The translations under genes were made by a program, and so were the position numbers. Source: Sinonovacula constricta (lineage: Eukaryota; Mollusca; Bivalvia; Cardiida; Solecurtidae). From it: a stretch of DNA of 64,000 nt. Below are positions 2,156-48,673 of this stretch, in pieces. The stretch is from NCBI GenBank assembly GCA_007844125.1, contig CM017558.1:57355147-57419146 (forward strand). The letters are read 5' to 3'. The notes below the pieces were generated by a model that worked only from the letters and a program-made list of their open reading frames with translations, was not told where the DNA came from and made no database searches. Within the stretch, counting starts at the first letter, position 1; the number at the start of each line of letters is the position of its first letter.

Positions 2156-5100
2156 CTATGCTTCCTCATCATCATCGTCATTCCAACTTTCTTGCACAAT
2201 TGAGGCGACTTTTTTCTCGTATTCCCTCCGATTTTCTCGATATAACTGCGCTGCCTCATTGTTTGCAGGGCTATTGGGATTTGGGTCGTGTAGTAGAGAC
2301 TATAACAGAACAGAAAAAGATAATTAGCTGCCAGTTTTTACATTAGTTTTAAAAATAGTAAAAATTAATTTTCCAAAATTGTCTATTTGTCAAAGACTTT
2401 TATTCATAGTTACAAAATACATACTTTATTAGTTTAATATTACATGTCTCTACCAATTTTACTTATTTTGAAATGAAAAAGATTTCCATATTTAGACGTC
2501 AACTTACATACAACTGCATTAAAACGAACAAGAGTGAGGAATGTGGGTATTGGAATGATGATGTTGATGATGGAAACATATTTTCAAGCAAACATAGTAT
2601 ATAGCAATAATTTCTCTAACATGTCATTCAACAACGAAAAAGCCCCCCATAAACCTAGCTTTTCTTAAAAGAATTTTGCAGAGCAACCCATGCACTGGTT
2701 TTTGAGAAACAAGCAGCTAGTTGCTAGTACTGCAAATCAGGGCCACATTTCTGACAAAATCCAATCTGGAACTTTCAAACTCAAATTAGTAGGCATGATA
2801 ACAAGAATGACATATGTGTAGTTTCATGACAGTCCATAAACTGGTTATTCTGATATCTCCTTTATATACTATTTGCACAGGTAACTTTCAATTAGAGCAT
2901 TACAGCAACATCACTGGGGGTTCAAGGAATGTGGAATGGCCCATCTTGTTCAAAGGAAAGTTGTGCTAAAAATGGTGTAAAGTTTGTTTTGTTTTTGTTA
3001 CATCGCACCGAAACAATTCTGGTGATATTGGCAATGTCCAGGTAATTATTGGTGAAGGACCACCCTTGACTTGTGTGGGTAGAACTGTCTGTGCACCACA
3101 GTTAAGCTGGAAAACCTCCTGACATGAAAATCTTCACTTCAACCGAGACTCAAACCCATGCAATGAGAGGCTGCAGAGTTACAAGTCGACAACTCTAACC
3201 ACTTGTCCAATGGCACCAGACTGGTGTTAAGTCTTTCTTAAAATCTTACAATAGAATGCAACTTTAACAGTCTATATTGGGTCTAACTTGAGATACAAAC
3301 CACACATTTAACAATCCTTTACACACTCTTCGCAGTTCTCTATTCAAATAAAGCAGTTTCCCCATTTGATTTCACATGCACTTTGCATTGAAATATTTCT
3401 CATCACATACATTTTGACAAACTAAACTCAAGACTGAATTTGAATGAAAGAATTCCTTAAATATTATACACACAGTTCATACTTGCATTAAAAAGATGAT
3501 ATGCAGAATTACTAAAGGGTATTTAACTGAATTTGGCAAATAGTGTAGATTCATACCAGGCAGTAAGCTTTCTGATCAAGATCTGCACTGTTTGCTCTTG
3601 TCTAAAAATTTGCTTTAGCATGCAGTTGTTATGTTATGTCACAGATTTAAATATGTAAGAAATGTGACAGGCAATTGGGTTAGCCCTCCTTAGTGACACC
3701 AGTATCTTCTTTGTTCAGACAGCCATTCTGTTTCTGTTTTGGGTTTATCTCCTACCGACAGCATTTTGTTTTTCTGTACACATTGTCTACTTGAAGGAGA
3801 TATTTTGCTGCCTTCATTATGTATTGCATGCCCCTAACAACTGGCAAGATACCACAACCAGCGACATTATCCACATTATCATGTCTACCAGTCATGGAAC
3901 TACCCTTATATTTACTTGTGTGTTAGCAAGGGAGCAATACCTCACCATTTTTAACAACTTTAGTGTTTTGCAGCCCAGGATCAGACCTGGGGAATCCTGT
4001 ATATGAAGCCAATACTCTTCTGATAGCGTTACCAGTCCCAGTAGAGCCATTCTGTACGTAAGTGATCTCAAACATAACTTAAGATCAATCTAAGGCAACA
4101 TGTTTGCAACTGAAAACAACATTGCTACTCTAACAAAAATATAAAGAATACAAATGTGTAAAACCCTCTTACCTGTATAGAAGTTAATATGGCAGAAACA
4201 TCATATGTTGGACTCCATCTGTTTTGTAAAATATCTAAACATATACTACCATCGGCATAAACTGAAACAAAAAAAGATTTAAAAACACTATTAGTATTGC
4301 AGTTATAACTATCAAAATATACCTTTATGTTATCCCATGATTTCCCCCGCTTCCATTCAATACACCTGTTACATATTTTGTATTATTACACTTGTGTAAC
4401 ACAGCTTTTCATAATGCAAATCATCTCATACCACTATTTCATCAAGTATTGTGTAAAATTTAGTAAAACCATTTATTGGTTATTAAAATCATGTGATAAA
4501 AAGAATCTGACACCTGTAGTCACTTAATACAAACATTTATAAAACTTATCCAGGAGGAAACGATAATAAGGTCGTTTACTTTTCCAAACATTATTTAATG
4601 AATGTTTGTAATAAATAACAATTCGTGTCAGATCCTCTACGTTAGTTTTGGTTATAAAGCACATCTCAGCAATATAATAATGGTCATCTCATTATTGTCT
4701 AGCTTCAATTGGGCGAGAAAGATTCCAGACAAATCCTGCTGCAGTAAGCTAGCAGACCTCACTGAGATCATGCTGTGATTTCCAAGAGTCGTGGGAGTTT
4801 AGTCTGACCTGTCGACTCAGCAAAAGTCATATATCAAATATCATATATTTTGGAACATTACACAATATTTTGCGAACATAAATCACTGATTCTGAACCTT
4901 AAAGTAACACAATTTAGTACAAATTTATTTTAATATCACTGTAACTTACCATTTGGATGAAACATTTTTGAAACAAATCTAACTGTTGGGGGTTTATTTG
5001 GATATTCCTCTGTGAACTCTATAGTCAGCTTAAATGTGCCATCTTCAAATGGTGTGTCATGTGGACTGAAAAAATATCAATAGTATACAATAGTAAAAAA

Positions 5101-12459: not shown

Positions 12460-12674
12460 GTATGTCTTAACATTACGGCATGCACAATAGGGGTGATTGT
12501 GTATTTGAATGATGGGATATGTATCAGGTGACCAGTGGTCAATCAGGCGAGTAAGAGCGGGAAAAGGCACGAGGGTTTTGTTTGGTGGTCAGTTCTACGC
12601 TTGACTTCGGTCGGTTCACATCGTTTCTATTGCTTTTCTTGTTTTGTTCGCTTCGTGTTTGCCACGTCTACAAC

Positions 12675-15600
12675 ATGGCTACTGGCAGTGGTGAGGATAT
12701 CCGCGGCTTTGTGAAAGAGGCTGTTAAGGAGAAGAACGACAAGTTATTGGCCAACATCAGCAGCATGATATCTAAGATAAGTGCCAAACCTTCTGCCGTT
12801 TCATTGCTTTACGCTCCGCGGTTTAAGAGAAAGAGTAACGAGGAGCAATTTAAATGCAACTCTAAGTTAATTGAGAGGTTGGACGACGTACAGACGTCTA
12901 TTCAGGCAAACGATTTAGCGTCTGCAAACCAATCTTTAGATGAAGGTACGATAAACTTTTATTTAATATTTAGCCTTAGGTTTACAGTTCCGGGTGTATA
13001 TGTATACACATTCCTTTGTAGAGGGGGCACGTGGTTTTCCCACGGTCAGTAGGTTTAAGAATACCGTAAAGCGCTATGTATTTAGCGTTAGATTATTTTT
13101 TATGATTTATGGTTTCAGCTTTACAGTTGTTAAGACAGCGACAGAAGATGATTTTGTTGGCTGACTCTTCAGAGCTCGGTTGGCGTGTAGTAAATGAGTA
13201 CGAGAGCAACCCCATTGCTAGTGACAGTGAGGATGAGAGGAAGATCTATAGGGCGGAGGCGCGAGCTCTCAAGAAGGCGAAGGCAGAGAAGGCTAGGAAG
13301 GCACGTCGGGGTTGGCCTTATAAGCGACCTGATACAGCGCCGTTGGTTACGGTTACATTAGTGCAGCAGAGCGGGAGACAGAAGCCGGGGTTATGTTTTT
13401 CGTGTGGCAAGCCAGGTCACTGGAAAAACGAATGTACGCAGGGTTCCAGTCAGCAAAATAATAAGATAAGTACTTGTATTTGGTTTAGTCTCTCTGGAAA
13501 TGGAGATACTTGCTGTTGTAAGGCGGTTGATAATGTATGTGGCGAGAGTAGCACGAATGAACAGTCTGTAGTGGCTGTAGAGTGTAAGGGCATAGTGGAG
13601 CCTGTATCGCTGGTAGGGCGTTTAAAGTCCCATTATGATCATTGGGCTGGTGTGTCGGATGATAGATATATCCTGGATGTAGTAAAAAATGGTTACAAAA
13701 TTCCATTTAAGGTTTTGCCGGAAGTAGCTTGTATTCGTAATAATAAGTCGGCTAGAGATAATCCGGAGTTTGTAGAGTCAGAAATTAGTTCCTTGTTAAA
13801 GAAAGGGGTTGTTTCTCAGGTTATGGAAAAACCGCATGTTGTAAACCCTCTTACGGTAGCTTATAGTAGAGCGGGCAAACCAAGGTTGGTATTGGATTGC
13901 AGGCATATTAATTCTTGTTTGCATTTGTTTAAAGTAAAATTTGAGGATATTAGAGTGGCGGAACGTTTGTTTGATCTAAATTCATATATTTTTACATTTG
14001 ATTTAAAGAGTGCATATCAATATATCGACATATTTCCTGAGCATACTACGTACCTCGGTTTTAGCTGGTCTTATAACGGTACGGTTAAATATTATGTTTA
14101 TAATTCCCTTCCGTTCGACATTTCAGTCGCAGGGCATATATTTACAAAAACGCTAAGAGTACCTCAAAAGTATTGGAGATCGTTAGGCTTAAAAGTTATC
14201 ATGTTTTTAGATGATAGAATAGGAGGAGATGTGAGGCTAGAAAGGGCTAGTTTTGCTAGTGATTTTATACGGGAGTCACTGCTAGAATTTGGATTTCTTC
14301 TGGCAGAAGATAAATGTTCGTGGAAACCCATGAGAAAGGGTTCTTGGTTGGGTCATACCCTGGATTTTGTTTCTAATAGGTTGTTCATTTCAGAGGAAAG
14401 GATTGGTAGATTAGAAATGTCAATAAAATCCTTGTTTTTTCAGATCTCTAGAGACAAGCTTAATCTTGTTCATGTTCGTGCTTTGGCAGGCGTGGTAGGG
14501 CAAATAATTTCCCTACAAAGTGTTTTGGGTAAGATTGTGTCTAGAATGAGAAGATATATGTACAAGTGTATTTTGACACGAGCAAGTTGGAACGCTCTGG
14601 TTAAAGTAAGCCCTGAAGCTGTGGCTGAGTTGGATTTCTGGCAGAGTAATGCGAGATTGCTCAATAGAGAGGGCAAGGTTTTAAGAGAAAGTATTGTGAC
14701 TACATTTTGTATGTATACAGATGCTAGTGCGGTCGGATATGGTGGTTATTTAACAATGAATAACGTAGAAACACAGCAGTTTGCTTCAGACACAGTGCTT
14801 GTGGGTTCATCGTTAACCAGTTTAGACTTAGGTAATAATGATCAGTTACGGTGGGCATCGGAATTGCCAGAGTATATGAGTTTGTGTTTGCCTCCGGAAG
14901 TAGGCGAAAGTGGTGTAGATAAACCCACCGGTGTGGAAGTGTGTTGTTTAGATCAGATTCCCGGAAGTGAATCTGAGGGTGCCTTGTCCCCGGAAGTGGA
15001 CAATGCGTTTACAGCTCAAAGAAAGGAGCCTGGTAGTTCGATATCCCCGGAAGTGGATATTTGTAGAGAGAAGATTCCCGGAAGTGAATCTAATGGTTTG
15101 TGCCCGGATAATGGTTTGTGCCCGGAAGTGCACAGTGGTAGTCGTAACCTAGTAGTAGGTTCACAGGTTAGTGGCTCATGGACAGAGCTGGAAGCTAGTC
15201 ATAGCTCTACGTGGCGGGAGCTAGAGGCTGTACGTAGGGTACTGTGTAGTAATGAAATTATAGTACATGGCAAAGAGGTAGCGCTATATATTGATAATAA
15301 GAATGTGTCTTATATTTTAGAATCTGGAAGCAACGTGTGCGGTGTGCATGAGATATGTTTATCTATTCATGATTGGTGTAGTAAAAATGATGTTTGTCTG
15401 TCCGCAACATGGATTCCTAGAAAGCAGAATGTGCATGCTGATTATTTGAGTAGATGTCAGGATTGTGATGACTGGTCAATAAATCAGTCAATATTTGAGT
15501 ATTTAAACGATAAGTGGGGACCATTTACAGTAGATCGTTTTGCTACGCATTACAATGCTAAATGTTTACGTTTTAATTCTAGATTTTGGGTACCAGGCAC

Positions 15601-15931
15601 GGAAGCCGTAGACGCATTCAAGCAGTGTTGGCGGGGTGAAAAGAACTGGATAGTTCCTCCAGCTAATCGAGTAATGGAGTATATAAAGAAAATTAAGTAC
15701 GAGCGTTGTTGTGGGGCACTAGTAGTTCCAAAGTGGAAATCAGCTCCTTTTTGGTCAATGATAACCAATGGAAAGGGAGAGTACTGTGATTTTATAAAGG
15801 ATGTGTTTGAGTTGTCTGTATTGGGAGCGGTAACGCTTGGACGTGGCAATAATGGAATGTTTGCTAATGAATCTTTGAGTTTCAGATTGCTGGCGTTAAA
15901 ATGTGATTGCACGGATGCAACTGGTTTTTAA
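12675..15931 (+). CDS. DIRS Gag-RT-RNase H polyprotein (exons 1 and 2)
   Basis: The Gag start is placed at ATG 12675 (ACAACATGG, good Kozak context); an upstream in-frame ATG at 12582 is less likely. An intron at 12946-13118 (GTACG...TTTCAG) joins GATGAAG to CTTTACAG, moving the frame so Gag runs into exon 2 without a stop. After splicing come a Gag block around GWRVVNEYE, a basic Lys/Arg-rich stretch, and a CCHC knuckle, CFSCGKPGHWKNEC. The RT follows with its catalytic FLDD. RNase H has YTDASAVGYGG, the acidic E in TWRELEAV, YIDNKN and HADYLSR. The C-terminal part contains PGTEAVDAF and VPP, matching in layout the DAM-methylase-like region of DIRS elements. About 120 residues between the first RNase H aspartate motif and TWRELEAV are an insertion encoding the hairpin array. 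The frame closes at 15931 only if the second intron is retained. Confidence 0.88.
14886..15135 (+). repeat. Array of six hairpins with invariant CCGGAAGT loop
   Basis: CCGGAAGT occurs at 14894, 14961, 14990, 15047, 15078 and 15122 (start positions). Each copy is flanked by its own inverted repeat: GCCT/AGGC, TCAGATTC/GAATCTGA, TTGTCC/GGACAA, ATATCC/GGATAT, AGATTC/GAATCT and TGTGC/GCACA. Stems are 4-8 perfect base pairs, and several extend further through wobble pairs. A decayed seventh copy, CCGGATAA, is at 15104-15111. The loop is read in two codon frames (Pro-Glu-Val in four copies, Pro-Gly-Ser in two), so it is nucleotides rather than amino acids that are conserved. The array lies in the RNase H coding region and keeps the ORF open. 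Confidence 0.9.
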
Positions 15932-16006
15932 AAAACAAAACAAAAACAAACAAACTTAGATAGTTTGGTAAATGTGTATTGTCATTTAAGTTTTGTGTGT
16001 TTTCAG
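15924..16006 (+). other. Probable intron 2 of the DIRS element
   Basis: The donor is G followed by GTTTTT at 15924, weak beyond the GT. The acceptor is strong: GTGTGTTTTCAG ending at 16006. Splicing joins the RNase H exon (codon phase 1) to the recombinase exon and gives ...DATG-VGLRATLERK in one frame. Without splicing the first ORF stops at 15931. Confidence 0.6.
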
Positions 16007-17019
16007 GTGTTGGTTTAAGAGCTACACTTGAAAGGAAATTCGATGAGGCTGGTGTAGCGATATCTGATAGAGACAACGTTATCGATCGTATGGCGGGTCA
16101 TTTGTTGGCTTCTAGGTCGGACAATACGGTTGCCAAATATTCCCATCAAGTAAAGCTGTTTAAAGACTTTTGTGCTGAGAGGCACTTCCCCTGTGAACAA
16201 GCGTATCCAATCCACGTCGCTATGTATTTATCGTCTCTTATAGACTCTGGAAAGTCGGACAGTGTGGTGTCGTCGGCTTATTACGGTATTAAGTGGTACC
16301 ATAATATTAGTGATTCAAAGGACCCTACAGACAGCCAGTTGGTAAAATCTATGCTAGAATGTGCCAAGCGTTTGAACTCTAAACCCATAGTCAAGAAGGA
16401 CGTCGTTACTTCAGAGCAGTTAGTTACACTGTGTGACATGTTTGTGGGATCTACGGACGTTATTACTTTGAGAGATTTGTCCATTATCTTGCTTTCTTAT
16501 GCTGGTTTGTTGCGTTTCGATGAAGTCAGCAGTTTAAGGTGTAATGATGTTACTATTCATGATGATCATATTAGGATTTTTATAAAAAAGAGTAAGACTG
16601 ACATATATAGGAAGGGTAATGAAGTATTAATTTCTCGTGGGGAAACGTCTGCTTGTCCTTTACGTATGTAACAGAGATATATTAGTTCTGCTCATTTGCA
16701 GTTGGGGGAGATATCTTTTTGTTTAGACCAGCTTGTAGGTCGGGGGAGAAATGTTTTTTTTCTACATAAGGACAAAAAGCTTAGTTATACACGTACTAGG
16801 GAATGTGTAGTTTCAAAGTTAAAGTTGGTTGCGCCTGATTCAAATCTGGGTTTGCATTCTTTGCGCGCTGGCGGAGCCACGGAGGCTGCCAATGCAGAAG
16901 AGGTTTCTGAGCGTTGTTTGAAGCGTCATGGTCGGTGGAGGTCAGACACGGCCAAGGACGGTTATGTAGACGATTCTTTGGAAAAGAAATTGTTAATTAC
17001 CAAGAAATTAAAACTTTGA
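16007..17019 (+). pseudogene. DIRS tyrosine recombinase, interrupted by one in-frame stop
   Basis: This exon continues the polyprotein frame to the stop at 17017-17019. The N-terminal SAM-like half contains NTVAKYSHQVKLF. The catalytic half keeps the first Arg in GLLRFDEVSSL, the HSLRAGG (HxxR) box, the HGRW box and the nucleophilic Tyr in DGYVDD, so the R-H-R-H/W-Y set is complete. A TAA at 16669-16671 interrupts the frame after CPLRM, and the same frame resumes at once with QRYISSAH. Family knowledge: this enzyme integrates the circular DIRS cDNA. As read, the copy would give a recombinase lacking its HxxR box and tyrosine unless the stop is bypassed. Confidence 0.85.
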
Positions 17020-17935: not shown

Positions 17936-20900
17936 TTATTCGCCATTTACGCACGCTAGATCAGTGAGCTGGTGCTGTATGTCCTTTAGCAGGGCGAAGC
18001 TGTCCACATTGACCACGTGATGGCCCGTTGCTATGGTGTTTAACTCCTGACGATCAACACGGGGTCCTACCCCGACGGCGATGACGGTCGCTTCACGTTG
18101 CAGAAGTGACGATTCATGTTTCGTAGCATCGGGATCATCCGAACGTCCGTCTGTGATCACGATCACGAACTTTGTTGAGTTTGCCCGGGCTCCGTTCTGG
18201 GGCTACAAGTAAAACGATATAAGACCATTAAGTCTCAACACAACAAGCAAGCTATACCAGACATAACTGAAGTATATTAATAGACTTATCCTGATAAATA
18301 CAAGAAATCCATTGATACAAAGCATCACAGGGCGTCCAATATGTTTAAAAAAGACAATACGCTATCTGACGAACGACAACGCCGGACATCCGATGAGTAC
18401 TTTAACTTAATGTGAGCTGAAATTATGATCTAACAATCGGCTTTCACTTAGACATAATAAGCACTGCACCATTTGTATTGCATATTGTCCAAATGTATCA
18501 AACAATCAATCTAATAACACAGTCTTTTAAAAAACTCATTTAAGAAATATTGAACGAATAACAATCTTAAAACCCTCGTACAAAACTGCTAACAGGTGAG
18601 ACTAAAACCTGCTTAATCAAAGTGGTTTGAAGTTGTCAAAATCGATACGTCATACGTATACGTGGTATAAAATGGAAGTGGTATAAATCTGCAACACCTA
18701 ATCACCCACAAGATCGAGGACTGACATGATAACTACAACAACTGTCTATTGCCAAATTTCTAATGCATTCCACAAAGGGCGTTAATAGGTCGTCACTCTG
18801 GACACAGGGGCAAAAGGACAACGGCTTTTAAAACTTTATAAAACTCCCTTTAAGATATGTAAGCCGAGATAATACCGCTCATACTTACTTATTTCAACAT
18901 ATACAACTACATACAATACCTGGAGGCTGTTTTCCCGGACAAACTTCAGAGCTTCTGACGTGTTTGTTCCTTTGCCAATGTACGTAATATTTTGAATGGC
19001 TTGAAGAACGTCGTGTCTTGAATTGTAGGTATTGAAGAAGAAATCATTGCGCACATCATCAGAGAATGTGACCACACTGAATTGAACGTTGTTGACACCG
19101 ATGGAGAACTGTGAAGCAAATCTGTTTACGAATTCCACTTCTGTCCTAAAGTTTTCAGCTCCTTCGCTGTCAGATGAGTCAAGGACGAAAACGATGTCGG
19201 CAGGTAGCAAACCACAGGCTTGAAAATAAAATAAGAACGTTTAAGTTTGTTTGATAGGACAATAGAATAAAAGGAGCCATTAAAATATTTTGTTGTGGCG
19301 ATTATGCAATCGAGTAAGGCTATTTGTTCCCTAATAAGATAAGACTGTATGTGCTGCATATGGAAATAATTAGAAAGTCGTATTTAAGTGCTTGTAAGAT
19401 TTTAGGAAATATTAGTAAATGTTAGGGAGGACACACTTTAATTTAAGTTAAAATATGCTGTCAAAGCTGGAAATGAAAAAAAACAAACTTCAAACATAAC
19501 TGCACTATGTGCACGCGTTCATATCGGAGATTTCGCATGACAATGCACCGCCATTACCTTAACGTTTATCATGCCAGGAACCATAGACGCTCCAATTATT
19601 GCACGGGTACTATACCTGCTTTAGTAGTTGTTGGTGGTAGAGAAGTCGTAGTTGTAGTTGTCGTGGTTGTACGCAGGGCACTCTCTAAAATAACACACAA
19701 GTGTATCTTAAAGAACGAACATATATCTAGATATATAAAGTATTATTTTAGCAGGAAAGTACAACCCTCAATAATCAAGCTAATTACAAAATTAATTCTT
19801 CTGTCAATTATAAATGACGGGTTGATATACCAGCTTGATGATCACATCATCTCTCTAGTTGCTGTAGCGGTCGAACATATACAATTTTCCACTTGCCATT
19901 ATCGCATTCTGAAATTGAGCATGTCCCTTTTCATATTTTCCTTTCGGGGAGCAAATGTCGTTTAGTTTACCATGAACTAAGTAGCCTATTGTAATATTTT
20001 GTACAAAAATAAAAGTTTAGCCAGTCATGAATGGATGAACAAATTTAACGTCGTACAACCTTTACCATTTTACCTTGCGTTAATTTTCTTCAAGCAAAGC
20101 ATATTTTCTTTTCGCTGTTTGTTTTTTATATATCCTACATAAGGTGAAAGGTAAGAGCTCTATAAACCGGGTTTAGGACTCAGTAGTTCTTTTTGCCGAA
20201 TGACCGTTTCAAGGCGGCATTTGTCGGATTTTCTCTATTATTATGTAATGTTTGGTTTTCGTTATTTTGCTACTTTTATATTAAAAAAGCATCTATATAC
20301 CCGTGTCTAGTGCTTGCTCTAATAAAATATATGTTGTAATACTCATAGAACCTTTTCATACTTTCGTATTCTTGCTCACAATAGTGTTAATGGTACAGTG
20401 TGGCGGTGTAAAACTCATGTTTATGTATCATGTTGTCATCTGCACGTACTGAATCATATCGGGATTGTGATTGTTATTCTCTGGCGTACTTTAAAGAACA
20501 TTAGAACGTCATTTCCATTGAACTGTGAAAGGGGAGTAATTAATCTATACTATGTAACCATAGTGAAAGTACAGTGTTGAAGGCTATTCATCTAAGATTC
20601 ATCCTTTAAAATTAGTAAATCATACTTGCACAGATCTTGTCGACGACCTGCTGATGGATGGAGTCCAGTTGATCAAAGTTGTCTACAGTGAAAGTGTGGT
20701 TGTTGTCAGAGGAGATGATATTCAGTTCATTCTTGTCAATATGTGGACCGATACCGATAGCGAATGTTTCCACGCCAAAACTGTATATAGATGTAACATA
20801 TGAATAAAATAGTTCAGAATATACACGCATGTGCTAAAACGTTCGTTTTAATCAAGTATTATTCTTATCTATTAGATAAAGACAGGTTAGAAAGAACTTT

Positions 20901-26900: not shown

Positions 26901-28823
26901 TTATAGCTCGATACGAGAATCTTGATAAAAGGTTCGTTATGTCTTTTAAGAAGATGACAATACAATAACAATATATTTGATGATTTAATATACAACCAAG
27001 TGTGCTGACCTTAAGAAGCTCTGCTTCTGTCTTCGTCCTGTCAGGTTCTAGTGATTGTCCATCTGTCAGCACAACTACAATCTTCGTCACATTTCTAATA
27101 TTATTGGACGGGTTGAGTGTATTCCTTCGTATGAACTGAAGGGCTAAAAGATCGTGAATAAAAGACATGCAGATACTAAATTTATTTCAAAATATGGATT
27201 ACTGTTGTACATTCATGTTCCGTTCTCTGAAACACAAATGTGCAAAAATGCCGAGAGGTATTAACTCTTTGTTAAAATATGATATTATTAATAAAATATT
27301 TCATAGTTTGTGATTTTGGCATAATGTTCTGCGCCGCTTCTTTCTACTTTTCAGAAAAAAAATGTCTCATAAAAACATGCCCAATAAGAAGAGCTCAAGG
27401 CCAATACGAAAGGGGCTTTTATCCTCATAAAGTAGTTAGATAGAAGACACAACCTTATGACGGTAAAAACGCATGCTCTTTAACTCTCGACACCAAAAAA
27501 ACCGGAATTGTTAAAAGAAAACCGAGAATTGTCGCTTTTATATTCTTGATACTAATTCGAAATCTTAACAATAACCAATATCGGTATGGAATCAAGCAAT
27601 ATAGGTAAATTGTTTTTTAGACCACAAGAACACAATATTAATTGCATATGCAGATCATTAACTAAACGTGACGGTTGGTGACTATTACAGTGACGTGATG
27701 ATGAGGCCGGCAAGCGATTAAAAGGATTAAACAATATTGGTCTATGTCGCTTGCGGACTTGTCAACAGAGTAAACATCAGTTGGGCTTAAACAATCATTA
27801 AAGGGATATATATATTTATACGTTACATATAAAACTATATGTTAAACATGATTATATTATACAATGCAGTTTTACGTGAAATAAGAAGTCATGAATGAAC
27901 CTATTCACATAGGACGCATTCGTCAACTATTCAGTGTAGTTTAGTGTAACGTTGATGGTAATGCGAATAGAGACATTAGGAAAATTGGCAGTCACATTTG
28001 ATTATCTAGCAGCTGCATAACTGTTAGTCCGTTTAAGGTAAAACAGACGCTTGAAAGCTGAAGAAATTTCATTTATATCTTTTAAACCCCTTTTAAGTGG
28101 TGATTTTGGATTTAATTTGGGTCAAACGAAGATTTGTACATCTCGCTTACATCGCTGTAAACGCTTTGATAAATACAGATGTAGTACTCACCTAAATGTG
28201 TGTTTGTTTCACCGTCATGATATATCGTCTGATTTATGGCATTTAAAAGCGAAACATTGTCAGTATACTGGTGAAGGAAGAATTGGTTGTGGACCACTGT
28301 ATCAAACGTCAATAATGCCACCCTCGTGTTGTTCAGGCCAATGGTGAACTGTTTCGTAAAGTTTGCCACAAAATTGAGCTGCTTTCTGAAGTTGGCAAGA
28401 CCTTCACTGCCAGAGCCATCCAAGGCGAAAATCAAGTCAATCGGTTTGTATGGGCAAGCTAAAACAACAGCAAAATTCGCAACGACGATTCTTTGTTTTC
28501 TACAATGTTTAAGTATGCCTGACACTATATATTTATAATGTTCATTTGCTCGGTTTACTTCTTTTCTAGTTTGTAAAGACTTAATTGCAAATGTCACCAA
28601 TTAATTAGTACAATCATATTCTTAATCATTGTGAATGATTGTGCTTTTTTCATAACTGATTAGTAAGGCGAATGGAAATAAGAGTTCATATATTTAAACA
28701 GCTTAGTAATGCTACGGACATCGTGACGTCTTTATCATTATATTTGTATATACCTTTATCAAGCGCCTTCAAAGTTCCAATACAGGAAACAACGCACACG
28801 GCTACGATCCACCTGGCATACAT
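17936..28823 (-). CDS. Secreted three-VWA-domain protein, paralogue A (complete, 10 exons)
   Basis: Exons in coding order: 28754-28823, 28192-28458, 27010-27143, 23332-23491, 22222-22465, 21623-21787, 20626-20780, 19616-19684, 18920-19218, 17936-18202. Total 1830 nt, 609 residues; all junctions GT-AG and in phase. Exon 1 encodes a signal peptide starting MYARWIVAVCVV. VWA1 (exons 2-4) has DGSGS, TNTH and LTDGQS; VWA2 (exons 5-7) has DSSGS, ETMT and LTDGRS; VWA3 (exons 9-10) has DSSDS, GTNTS and ITDGRS. The metal-ion adhesion site (DxSxS...T...D) is therefore intact in all three. Each domain is framed by cysteines (AC... to ...C), the usual closing disulfide. Exon 8 encodes a Thr-rich linker with nine consecutive Thr, probably O-glycosylated. 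The layout suits an extracellular-matrix or adhesion protein of the matrilin/cochlin or mussel thread-matrix type; the exact role is unknown. Confidence 0.92.
20150..20350 (+). repeat. Dispersed repeat family R, decayed partial copy
   Basis: It carries the blocks GAGCTCT-TAAA-CCGG-TTTA, TTGCCGA-TGACCGTT-CAAGGCGG and ATATGTTG-AAT-CTCATAG in the order seen in the copies at 44.6 and 47.3 kb. It lies in the intron between the VWA2 end and the linker exon of paralogue A. Confidence 0.5.
24363..24490. repeat. Foldback element with 30-bp perfect arms
   Basis: The first 30 bases, starting ATACCAGGTTAGTG, return as an exact reverse complement ending at 24490. A second inner inverted pair (AAAATCAGAAAGCA against TGCTTTCTTATTTT, one mismatch) makes a two-tier hairpin. 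It lies in the 3.5 kb third intron of paralogue A. A separate GTGTCAC/GTGACAC pair sits just before it (about 24290-24321). Probably a foldback MITE. Confidence 0.8.
25045..25270 (-). repeat. Dispersed repeat family R, minus-strand copy
   Basis: Reverse complement of the family at 44.6 and 47.3 kb. Shared blocks include AAAAGGCACAGGACAAAGGT, AGAACAAATCTGGGACGAG, GAGCAAACCCAACA and GGAACGGTCAGTCGGCA. It lies in intron 3 of paralogue A. Confidence 0.65.
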
Positions 28824-46900: not shown

Positions 46901-48673
46901 TGACAAATATTTAATCTGCTGGCCTTAAGAAGTTCTGCTTCTGCCTTCGTCCTGTCAGGTTCTAGTGATTGTCCATCTGTCAGAACTACTACAATCTTGG
47001 TCACATTTCTAATATGATTGAACGGGTTCAGCGTATCCATTCGTATGAACTGAAGGGCTAAAATGAACAAATAAGAAAACTTGGAACATAGTTTTATTAC
47101 AAACGTATTATTTCTTTGTATAAATTATTTCGTGAACCTAATAATGTTATAAAATGTTAACTTCAATAATAATGCCACGTTGTTGTTTCTTCCTATTTCT
47201 TCTCTATTTACGTTATGAAAACATAAATATACAATTGACAACTTCATCAATTAAATCTTTTTGGCGATATTTTGTAGGTGGACTCATTGTATTCTTTTCT
47301 AAACACTGTGTGGACATTTTTTTCAATGACGTCACTACTTTCGTCATAACGTATAGAAAGTATCAGCGCATGGACATTTTGTTTTCAAATAGATCGTTTT
47401 TCTTTTTATTGCTTGCATTTGAGAAACTCGTCAGGAAGTGCGAAGACAGAGCTCTGTAAAACTGGTTTAAGCACCCCAGTCGGTCCATATTGCCGACTGA
47501 CCGTTCCAAGGCGGTAACTGTCGGGTATGCTCTTTTCGTTAAATGACTCATCACAAATTTGTTCTTACTTTTCGCTTGGTTTGCATGTGAAATGCCTTTG
47601 TTCTGTGCCTTTTCGGAGTTTGGTATATGTTGCAATGCTCATAGGACTTGGTCATATATTCTTATTACTAATAAGACAATACTTGCGGTTAGGTAAAATA
47701 TTGCTAAGATTGTACTGTTAAAATATGTTAATACAATCAAACTTAAAACAGCAATAAATTTGGGATTTACATTGACGAGGTACATACCAAGGTGAGTGTT
47801 TGTCTCCCCATCGTGATACTGCGTATGGTTGATGGCATTCAGAAGTGATACATTGTCTGTATACTGGTGAAGATAGAATTGGTTGTGAACCACTGTATCA
47901 AACGTCACTAAGGCAACCCTCGTGTTGTTCGAACCGATTAAGAATTGTTTCGTGAAGTTAGAAACGAAGTTGAGCTGTTGTTTGAAGTTGGCAAGACCTT
48001 CACTGCCAGAACCGTCCAGGGCGAATATGAGGTCAATCGGCTTGTAAGGACAAGCTTGAGACAAAACATATATATATCATAATACAGAAAAGTGATTCTA
48101 AACTACATGAAAAAGAAACAAATGAATGTGACATCATTGTGACGACGGATTTCTTCATACCCATTTACTGATTGTTCGCACTTAAAAGTCCTATATCCTA
48201 GAAAGTAATGGAAAGATAAGCGTGATAATTACTTATAAAATGAGCCGCGAGTATGCTTGAATCCATGTCTTTACGATTTTTGAGTATTCCAATGTTAGGA
48301 AAAGGATTTCACAGGCTACGGTTAGACCAAATTGTTATTAAAGTTACAATTCGGACAAGTATTAACTTTTTCCCCAAACAAATACACTCGAATTAATTTA
48401 TCAGATAGTTTTCTGACTTTACCCATTTTGTAGATTTTGTCATGCCCCATTTGTTATCAGTTTTACTATATTTATGCTAACTTCCGGTTCAATACACAAA
48501 AAGATAAATCTTTATCTTTATAACCGATATTGTCGTTTAAATATTAATAAAAAGTTGCATTTGAGCTAAAAAAAATAATGATCAGTACCTTTGTCAGTTG
48601 CTTCATATGCATGTAGCCAGAAAGCAATCACACACAAGTATGACAAAAGTGGAACCATTTTGTTCTTCGTCAT
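40952..48673 (-). CDS. Secreted three-VWA-domain protein, paralogue C (complete, 10 exons)
   Basis: Exons in coding order: 48589-48673, 47788-48054, 46924-47057, 46348-46507, 45588-45828, 45240-45413, 43673-43827, 42294-42359, 41634-41932, 40952-41218. Total 1848 nt, 615 residues, phases closed. The signal peptide begins MTKNKMVPLLSYLCV; the second Met is an alternative start. The domain plan equals that of paralogues A and B, with MIDAS residues intact in all three VWA domains and nine consecutive Thr in the linker. VWA2 is the most divergent part: exon 5 is one codon shorter, exon 6 three codons longer than in A. The exon 3 donor reads AAG-GCCAGC where A has AAG-GTCAGC, so it must be a GC-AG intron if used. 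A TATTTAAA on the minus strand near 48728-48735, some 60 bp before the ATG, is a plausible TATA box. Confidence 0.9.
44190..44295 (+). repeat. Dispersed repeat family R, short 3' copy
   Basis: It repeats the end of the family: GGCTTGCATGTGAAATACCT, GTTCTCTGCCTTTTCGGAG and ATATGTTGCAATGCTCATAG. The copy at 44849-44940 is nearly identical over this stretch. It lies in an intron of paralogue C. Confidence 0.75.
44555..44940 (+). repeat. Dispersed repeat family R, full-length copy 1
   Basis: About 385 bp, closely matching 47285-47665 throughout: TCTAAACACT-TGTGGACAT, AATGACGTCACTACTTTC, AATAGATCGTTTTTC, CCAGTCGGTCCATATTGCCG, CCGTTCCAAGGCGGTAACTG, then the GCTTGCATGTG tail. It is non-coding and family affiliation is unknown. 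It sits in the intron between VWA2 exons 6 and 7 of paralogue C. Confidence 0.8.
46793..46819. repeat. (GA)n microsatellite
   Basis: About 13 GA units followed by a purine-rich tract, in the intron after the exon 3 GC donor of paralogue C. Confidence 0.9.
47285..47665 (+). repeat. Dispersed repeat family R, full-length copy 2
   Basis: Near-identical counterpart of the copy at 44555-44940, in the intron between VWA1 exons 2 and 3 of paralogue C. The short open frames here on both strands are repeat-derived. Confidence 0.8.

Follow-up and report, generated by a model that had tools for sequence, protein, structure and literature searches.

In retroviruses, the psi signal, close to the 5′ end, is made up of a small number of distinct stem-loops, whose short stems expose purine GNRA and GGAG loops that are read by the CCHC knuckles of NC. 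The organelle genomes of Volvox are said to carry palindromic selfish repeats and many short palindromes. For DIRS-type retrotransposons, we know of no account of how the genomic RNA is selected or assembled. In dispersed packaging signals of the MS2 type, several stem-loops per genomic RNA share a motif while the remainder varies (PMC6281560). Recognition by Smaug prefers CUGG, five-nucleotide loops and a G before the loop (PMC4053848), and coding palindromes of up to 284 bp in nematomorph mitochondria encode conserved protein (PMC6649704). Among the open-licence papers listed by our searches, none could be recognized from its title and abstract as describing a hairpin array or signal of this kind for DIRS elements, and the terms hairpin, palindrom and bivalve occur nowhere in PMC3266345. 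Here, we describe a cluster of hairpins that present one loop sequence on different stems within the pol gene of a DIRS-type element of the clam Sinonovacula constricta.

Results

The host element

The window (the whole 64,000-nucleotide stretch that was analyzed) covers 57.36–57.42 Mb on contig 4 of a genome of 1.22 Gb and contains a DIRS-type element from about 12.5 to about 17.0 kb, organized as follows:

12555..13052, + strand: upstream open frame in the gag position; the ORF that it contains (12582–13052) has no Pfam match
13109..15931, + strand: DIRS-type pol ORF of 940 aa, with CCHC knuckle, RT, RNase H and Dam-like domain
13391..13441, + strand: CCHC zinc knuckle, pol residues 95–111, a candidate reader of the hairpins
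14768..15142, + strand: predicted-disordered pol insert, residues 554–678, which hosts the array, between RNase H strands 543–550 and 687–690
15964..16671, + strand: tyrosine recombinase-like frame, closed by a stop at 16669–16671

In the pol protein, Pfam finds Dam above its cut-off and RVT_1 and RT_RNaseH below theirs, and the ORF after pol matches Phage_integrase and a SAM-like domain, both slightly under cut-off; the element has both the RT-RNase H-methyltransferase pol and the tyrosine recombinase of the DIRS type. A terminal repeat search of the flanks gave just a weak 35-nt inverted match (E 0.003). While pol itself is open, the recombinase frame is interrupted by its stop and reopens in the same frame at 16672–17019, a stretch for which a Pfam scan found no match. 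The pol protein is 93% identical to its nearest relative and 43–54% identical to most aligned relatives, which likewise show RT and often Dam. Named relatives come mostly from bivalves (Mercenaria, Dreissena, Ruditapes, Pecten and Argopecten, and further Pinctada, Ylistrum, Saccostrea, Solemya and Mytilus), the others being from two sea urchins and from metagenome-assembled genomes of clam symbionts, which probably carry host DNA. Viral and genome contig collections yielded no pol relatives with DNA, and a PDB sequence search with pol returned no match. AlphaFold assigns residues 554–678 a pLDDT of about 30–36 per 10-residue block, with higher values solely at the edges, and of 147 relatives in which this site could be delimited, 76 have at most 30 residues there. 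Elsewhere in the window, the minus strand has open frames that match the von Willebrand A domain, at 17936–18202, 18836–19240 and 28112–28600; these are probably host-gene exons outside the element.

Six hairpins with one loop

The sequence CCGGAAGT occurs on the + strand at 14894, 14961, 14990, 15047, 15078 and 15122, inside the pol insert, each time between perfect Watson–Crick arms, which are in order 4, 8, 6, 6, 6 and 5 bp long:

14887..14908, + strand: hairpin 1, GCCT/AGGC, loop 14894–14901
14953..14976, + strand: hairpin 2, TCAGATTC/GAATCTGA, loop 14961–14968
14984..15003, + strand: hairpin 3, TTGTCC/GGACAA, loop 14990–14997
15040..15061, + strand: hairpin 4, ATATCC/GGATAT plus an outer G·U, loop 15047–15054
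15072..15091, + strand: hairpin 5, AGATTC/GAATCT, loop 15078–15085
15116..15135, + strand: hairpin 6, TGTGC/GCACA plus an outer U·G, loop 15122–15129
15091..15126, + strand: 18-bp tandem duplication that repeats the left part of hairpin 6

The original prediction of six such loops on exactly complementary stems is thereby confirmed, stem for stem, with 4- to 8-bp stems at 14887–15135, as is their irregular spacing of 29–67 nt (67, 29, 57, 31 and 44 nt between loop starts). Through one U·G pair, hairpin 1 widens to 7 bp (TTTGCCT/AGGCGAA). The loop is translated as PEV in four copies and as PGS in two. Two more copies of CCGGAAGT in the window have arms of 0 bp (13718, + strand) and 1 bp (48480–48487, − strand). 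The copy at 13718 lies in the RT region of pol, where the peptide reads LPEVACI; the same peptide is found there in P0003.

Between 14880 and 15140 there are seven hairpins with an 8-nt loop and arms of at least 4 bp, six of them bearing CCGGAAGT. Frequent arrays in shuffled sequence had been named as an outcome that would count against the prediction; 1000 dinucleotide shuffles of this region contained 0.63 hairpins on average and never placed one loop in two of them, so chance is rejected locally. A hairpin covariance model, whose training sequences include the six, has six significant matches in the whole window, all in the insert (E 7e-7 to 9e-6), followed by a match at 13488 with E 1.4. 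Folded alone, single hairpins reach −5.5 to −9.8 kcal/mol, while the 271-nt region as a whole shows no excess stability over shuffles (z = −0.38); only the local hairpins stand out. Local stem pairing probabilities are 0.47–0.96 on the plus strand and 0.20–0.95 on the minus strand, falling to 0.08 for hairpin 1 in an 801-nt context and to 0.34 and 0.12 for hairpins 5 and 6 in a 271-nt context. RNA folding predicts that the loop, CCGGAAGU, forms a C·U mismatch and a C-G pair beneath a GNRA-type GGAA tip.

Copies elsewhere in the genome

A protein search of the genome, in which 49 of 802 candidates were scored so that copy counts are lower bounds, yielded at least 17 distinct close copies, the window's included, that align over the insert. 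All carry the array, one (L017) only partly, as it ends within the insert, and another (L016) with the first base of loop 1 altered. The 18-bp duplication at hairpin 6 is confined to the window copy among the aligned copies that reach this point, which L017 does not. Variable sites number 1/48 in loops, 5/69 in stems, 6/121 in spacers and 21/284 outside; the loops are not clearly less variable than the spacers, and the site classes are inseparable in these 17 copies because the copies are too young. Five stem changes, with pair types assigned by hand, comprise three to G·U on the sense strand, two that break a pair and none to A·C.

A second family (L031, L032 and L033), interrupted by stops, shares 50–64% protein identity with the window copy over matched parts and sets the loops CCGGAAGT, CCGGAAGC or CCGGAAAC on the stems GATTC, GCTC, AGACTC, TCGATTT and GAGCTT. 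Variants include TCGATTC/GAATTGG in L032, where the TCGATT hairpin alone remains of those of this family, and AGCTT/AAGCT in L031. A third, decayed element (L066) retains the remnant of a DIRS-like RT, followed downstream by three copies of CCGGAAGT, only one of which has a 3-bp arm. The hairpin model matches this element at two sites (E 0.002 and 0.01), and many GAGCT repeats surround the three copies at 2900–3400 of this locus (G000:C6:66284500-66291500). The distant DIRS copies L022, L026, L028 and L030 have gaps of less than 30 bp at the insert site, and in these and two further DIRS-like loci lacking the long insert (L034 and L035), the hairpin model found no match at E ≤ 5.

A pattern of three CCGGAAGT has 104 matches genome-wide and its reversed control 916; clustering of the motif alone is therefore no evidence, and the evidence lies in the arms. 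Among the 30 loci listed for this pattern, eight are first-family copies, in which arms at the array sites are mostly 4–8 bp, a few shortened by copy-specific changes, and 22, many of them overlapping, are non-DIRS tandem repeats in which the arms of CCGGAAGT are 0–1 bp; the remaining matches were assessed from printed stretches alone. Two tandem repeats containing CCGGAAGT, at G000:C15:26632240-26634047 and C18:20921561-20925885, have units of about 50 and 45 bp. A freely mobile tiny palindrome, which had been proposed as one origin of the array, finds no support here: the 22 listed non-DIRS loci have these minimal arms, and all six significant model matches in the window are inside the insert.

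Covariation of the stems

For a DNA-level analysis, the six window hairpins and five from L033, ten of them distinct, were aligned over six pairs each (60 cells). Standard pairs occupy 57 of the 60 cells (95%, versus 65.7 ± 4.7 when shuffled), four of them U·G, and none of the remaining three is A·C. Both sides change in all six pairs, and the covariation score is 1.063 versus 0.431 ± 0.078 (reached by 0 of 500 shuffles); in slid registers, at most 48.3% of cells pair. Two of the five covariation measures were reached by shuffles, both-side pairs in 78 and further pair types in 38 of 500, and the set by itself overstates the case, as its hairpins were chosen for folding and, from the second family, at least two weaker sites were omitted (CCAGAAGA with CCC/GGG, and AGCGGAAGTGCT). 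Compensatory changes exceed controls at the DNA level and at the protein level described below. A loss of stem complementarity in the majority of copies, also named beforehand as counting against the prediction, was sought but not seen. The stems fold about equally well on the minus strand, and among single departures the G·U type (19) does not significantly exceed the A·C type (9; p = 0.087), so that strand asymmetry was rejected as proof of an RNA.

The sequence CCGGAAGTG resembles the ETS core, and an array of ETS/GABP-type enhancer sites in double-stranded DNA had been offered as a rival idea. Binding to a duplex gives no reason to expect mutually complementary flanks, and it leaves the strong stem covariation unexplained; moreover, C and A also occur at loop base 8 while the stems stay pairable. 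We consider such an enhancer very improbable.

Codon complementarity across relatives

When the loop is read as CCG GAA GTN, the codons on either side of the motif face each other in the stem with their first two bases, and pairing can be followed in protein sequences. In 121 proteins, the insert residues (9219) contain PE[VAEMGI] 204 times and all other residues (91204) 47 times. Flanks are pairable in 126 of 172 unique X-PE[VAEMGI]-Y contexts from 58 proteins, among relatives of about 45% identity. In a first set of 142 unique contexts from 50 proteins, 107 are Watson–Crick-capable versus 30.3 ± 4.7 (maximum of 2000 shuffles, 45), and in a later set of eight new proteins from a third protein search, 18 of 29 versus 10.9 ± 1.6 (maximum of 5000 shuffles, 17). 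Motif contexts are not independent by descent; shuffled within proteins, 95 of 135 are pairable versus 66.5 ± 3.9 (maximum 82), and with a single context of each type kept per 60% cluster, 39 of 77 versus 13.5 ± 3.1 (maximum 26), with at least two different pairing classes in 10 of 18 clusters. Outside the insert, 14 of 61 contexts are pairable versus 6.8 ± 2.3, and 8 of the 16 cases on the list of outside sites are copies from P0086 and P0112 that the alignment set outside. A near-constant loop on covarying stems, as originally predicted, is thus borne out by the second family of the same genome and by the motif contexts of 58 proteins.

A fourth pair fits 23 of 26 informative contexts versus 18.5 ± 1.6 (52 of 5000 shuffles were as high). 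Clade-wide longer stems find no support at codons −2/+2, which are not enriched (24 versus 18.4 ± 3.7), or at −3/+3. The clade's usual stem thus seems to be 3–4 bp, and the window's 4–8 bp long by comparison. Of 33 contexts in the PGS frame, 13 show pairing at the first base and 10 are compatible with four pairs, a weak test that has no control. Frame 3 (RK) is not enriched (nine in inserts, ratio 0.9), presumably because stop codons forbid it.

The flanking residues X and Y pair by codon complement as P-G, S-D, L-S, T-V and C-H, and in the tandem units of P0086, L→P occurs together with S→G. A protein motif as the cause was rejected: PED is absent whereas PEE is present, and X and Y have no apparent shared chemistry. 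Together with the two frames PEV and PGS, these codon-complement flanks uphold the claim that protein constraint does not account for the loop.

In a FastTree of 160 proteins, motif-bearing elements fall mostly into one clade (with a modest support of 0.599 for the core, and 0.999 with its short-spacer sisters); the core also includes motif-less members, and the single-motif proteins P0105, P0130, P0137 and P0145 fall outside. In the sister groups P0067, P0075, P0122, P0123, P0131 and P0147, which have zero or one PE motif, the inserts contain other repeated peptides (SQLTE, IPLEG, ATCxG); inspection of these six inserts by eye gave no clear hairpin. Repeated peptides in the RNase H inserts of other DIRS groups might be further arrays.

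Tandem amplification is evident in 8-aa units of P0040 and P0043, in 10-aa units of P0086 and in the 18-bp duplication of the window, and the window stems are nearly all Watson–Crick. A purely mutational origin would build on such events, with templated repair or template switching keeping quasi-palindromes perfect and tandem duplication multiplying them in the absence of any function. Mutation of this kind does not, however, preserve an unpaired loop across elements with about 45% protein identity, nor does it produce the bias at base 8; stems of 3–4 bp would also be a poor substrate, and the duplication in the window copy yielded no new perfect hairpin. We regard this origin as unlikely.

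Which loop bases are held

Changed loops were scored by how often their flanks stay pairable, a rough scale, as coding routes differ per base and background pairing is 13%; base 3 is silent in proteins. The consensus PEV is pairable in 90 of 119 contexts, and loops with base 8 changed in 34 of 45 (PEA 17/23, PEE 17/19, PEG 0/3, PED none seen). For the other bases, the counts are 10/28 (base 1), 10/22 (base 2), 2/5 (base 4), 1/7 (base 5), 7/10 (base 6) and 2/9 (base 7). A loop as variable as its stems, which had been named as evidence against the prediction, was not found: loop bases except the last change rarely. That PEE and PEA are pairable, PED absent and PEG 0 of 3 agrees with a model in which a purine directly 3′ of the loop is paired and base 8 is not. 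The profile is consistent with a C2-G7 pair that closes GGAA under a mismatch, matching the RNA folding model, although changes at base 6 violate the GNRA rule. In P0020, PDV loops occur with P-G and S-D flanks, and P0010 has mostly LEV or LEG; concerted loop changes within these two could possibly reflect co-evolution with a self-encoded reader.

The profile bears on two other functional readings. The loop could be the site of a host SAM domain protein of the Smaug/Vts1 type, which binds CNGG followed by 0–4 nt on a non-specific stem, with a role in translational control or localization of the transposon RNA. CCGGAAGU is compatible with CNGGN0-4 in an 8-nt loop on free stems, and multiple Smaug sites in the Hsp83 open reading frame are cited in the reference list of PMC4053848. 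The Smaug consensus, however, fixes C1, G3 and G4 and frees positions 2 and 5–8, whereas bases 2, 5 and 7 are constrained here: among contexts with pairable flanks, changes number 10 at position 2, the same as at position 1, and just 1 and 2 at positions 5 and 7, as opposed to 34 at position 8. The array forms are also those less favored by Smaug (CCGG, an 8-nt loop and no G preceding the loop). A Smaug-type site thus fits only superficially, and we think it quite unlikely. Alternatively, the self-complementary CCGG could allow any two hairpins to form kissing loops, in cis or between two genomic RNAs, leading to dimerization or compaction, with the differences among stems preventing the hairpins from merging into long duplexes. 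The palindromic CCGG stands at 11 of 12 DNA sites in the window copy and L033 (one further AGCGGAAGT site is uncounted), and bases 6 and 8 vary more freely, both as kissing would have it. Kissing does not need A5 and G7, though, which are conserved like G4, and base 3 being silent in proteins makes the CCGG palindrome uncheckable there; we give this reading a similarly small chance.

Discussion

The observation in the original prediction is confirmed and its interpretation partly supported. Structure and covariation are well supported; from them we infer the acting molecule, RNA rather than DNA, its reader and its function. Near-constancy of a loop whose stems change freely usually indicates that a trans-acting factor recognizes the loop, and our judgment leans slightly toward the six hairpins acting in cis as a single RNA element within the transcript of the retrotransposon, showing its loop to such a protein. 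Each short stem would serve as a generic scaffold, free in sequence, that displays CCGGAAGU; the acting form would be the sense RNA, and an RNA-binding protein would read the loop and bind several copies together. The array may have arisen where a tolerated RNase H loop was enlarged into a disordered insert, its copies being gained by local tandem duplication and then diverging through compensatory stem changes.

The first candidate for the reader would be the CCHC knuckle protein of the element itself, and the first candidate function packaging of the genomic RNA or its assembly with RT, in analogy to packaging signals composed of several stem-loops, an identification that we offer tentatively and regard as somewhat doubtful. 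Among proteins of at least 850 aa, the classical-type CCHC pattern is present in 15 of 28 that bear the array, 20 of 23 with a long insert and 52 of 55 with a short spacer. Inspection of the alignment shows a knuckle-like motif in the majority of array-bearing proteins that extend over this part, in many cases with a larger H-C distance; P0034 is without a knuckle, and P0005 and P0089 have a changed ligand. By its sequence distribution, the knuckle is a plausible but not distinguishing, and hence weak, candidate. It is conceivable, if short of probable, that a bivalve DIRS clade evolved the disordered RNase H insert mainly as an RNA recognition array, with a near-fixed CCGGAAG, a reader among the element's own proteins and freely changing stems. 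If so, a tyrosine-recombinase retrotransposon would contain a multi-copy packaging or assembly code. A loop kept on covarying stems over about 45% protein identity provides an experimental handle, namely bases to mutate and candidate readers. Moreover, the array exemplifies how nucleic-acid structure can shape coding sequence in a way that protein databases alone suffice to detect, and the codon-complementarity test could reveal other such arrays.

Among known systems, the array resembles retroviral psi in its short stems, purine loop and retroelement context, but repeats one loop within pol in place of a few distinct stem-loops. In contrast to the selfish palindromes of Volvox, no spread beyond DIRS inserts was found in the model scan of the window or the triple-motif scan. 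With the palindromes of nematomorph mitochondria (PMC6649704), it shares inverted repeats within protein-coding sequence, whereas the clam arms are short, the insert is predicted to be disordered and the loop is nearly constant. As in Smaug elements (PMC4053848), CNGG lies on the 5′ side of the loop, the stem is non-specific and multiple copies sit in an ORF (Hsp83), yet most loop bases of the array are constrained, and its combination of CCGG with an 8-nt loop belongs to the weaker Smaug forms. The dispersed signals of the MS2 type share with the array the use of several stem-loops with one motif in an otherwise variable setting (PMC6281560); the clam copies differ in being clustered in one in-frame retrotransposon insert. 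Among known principles, that of multi-copy packaging signals is the nearest.
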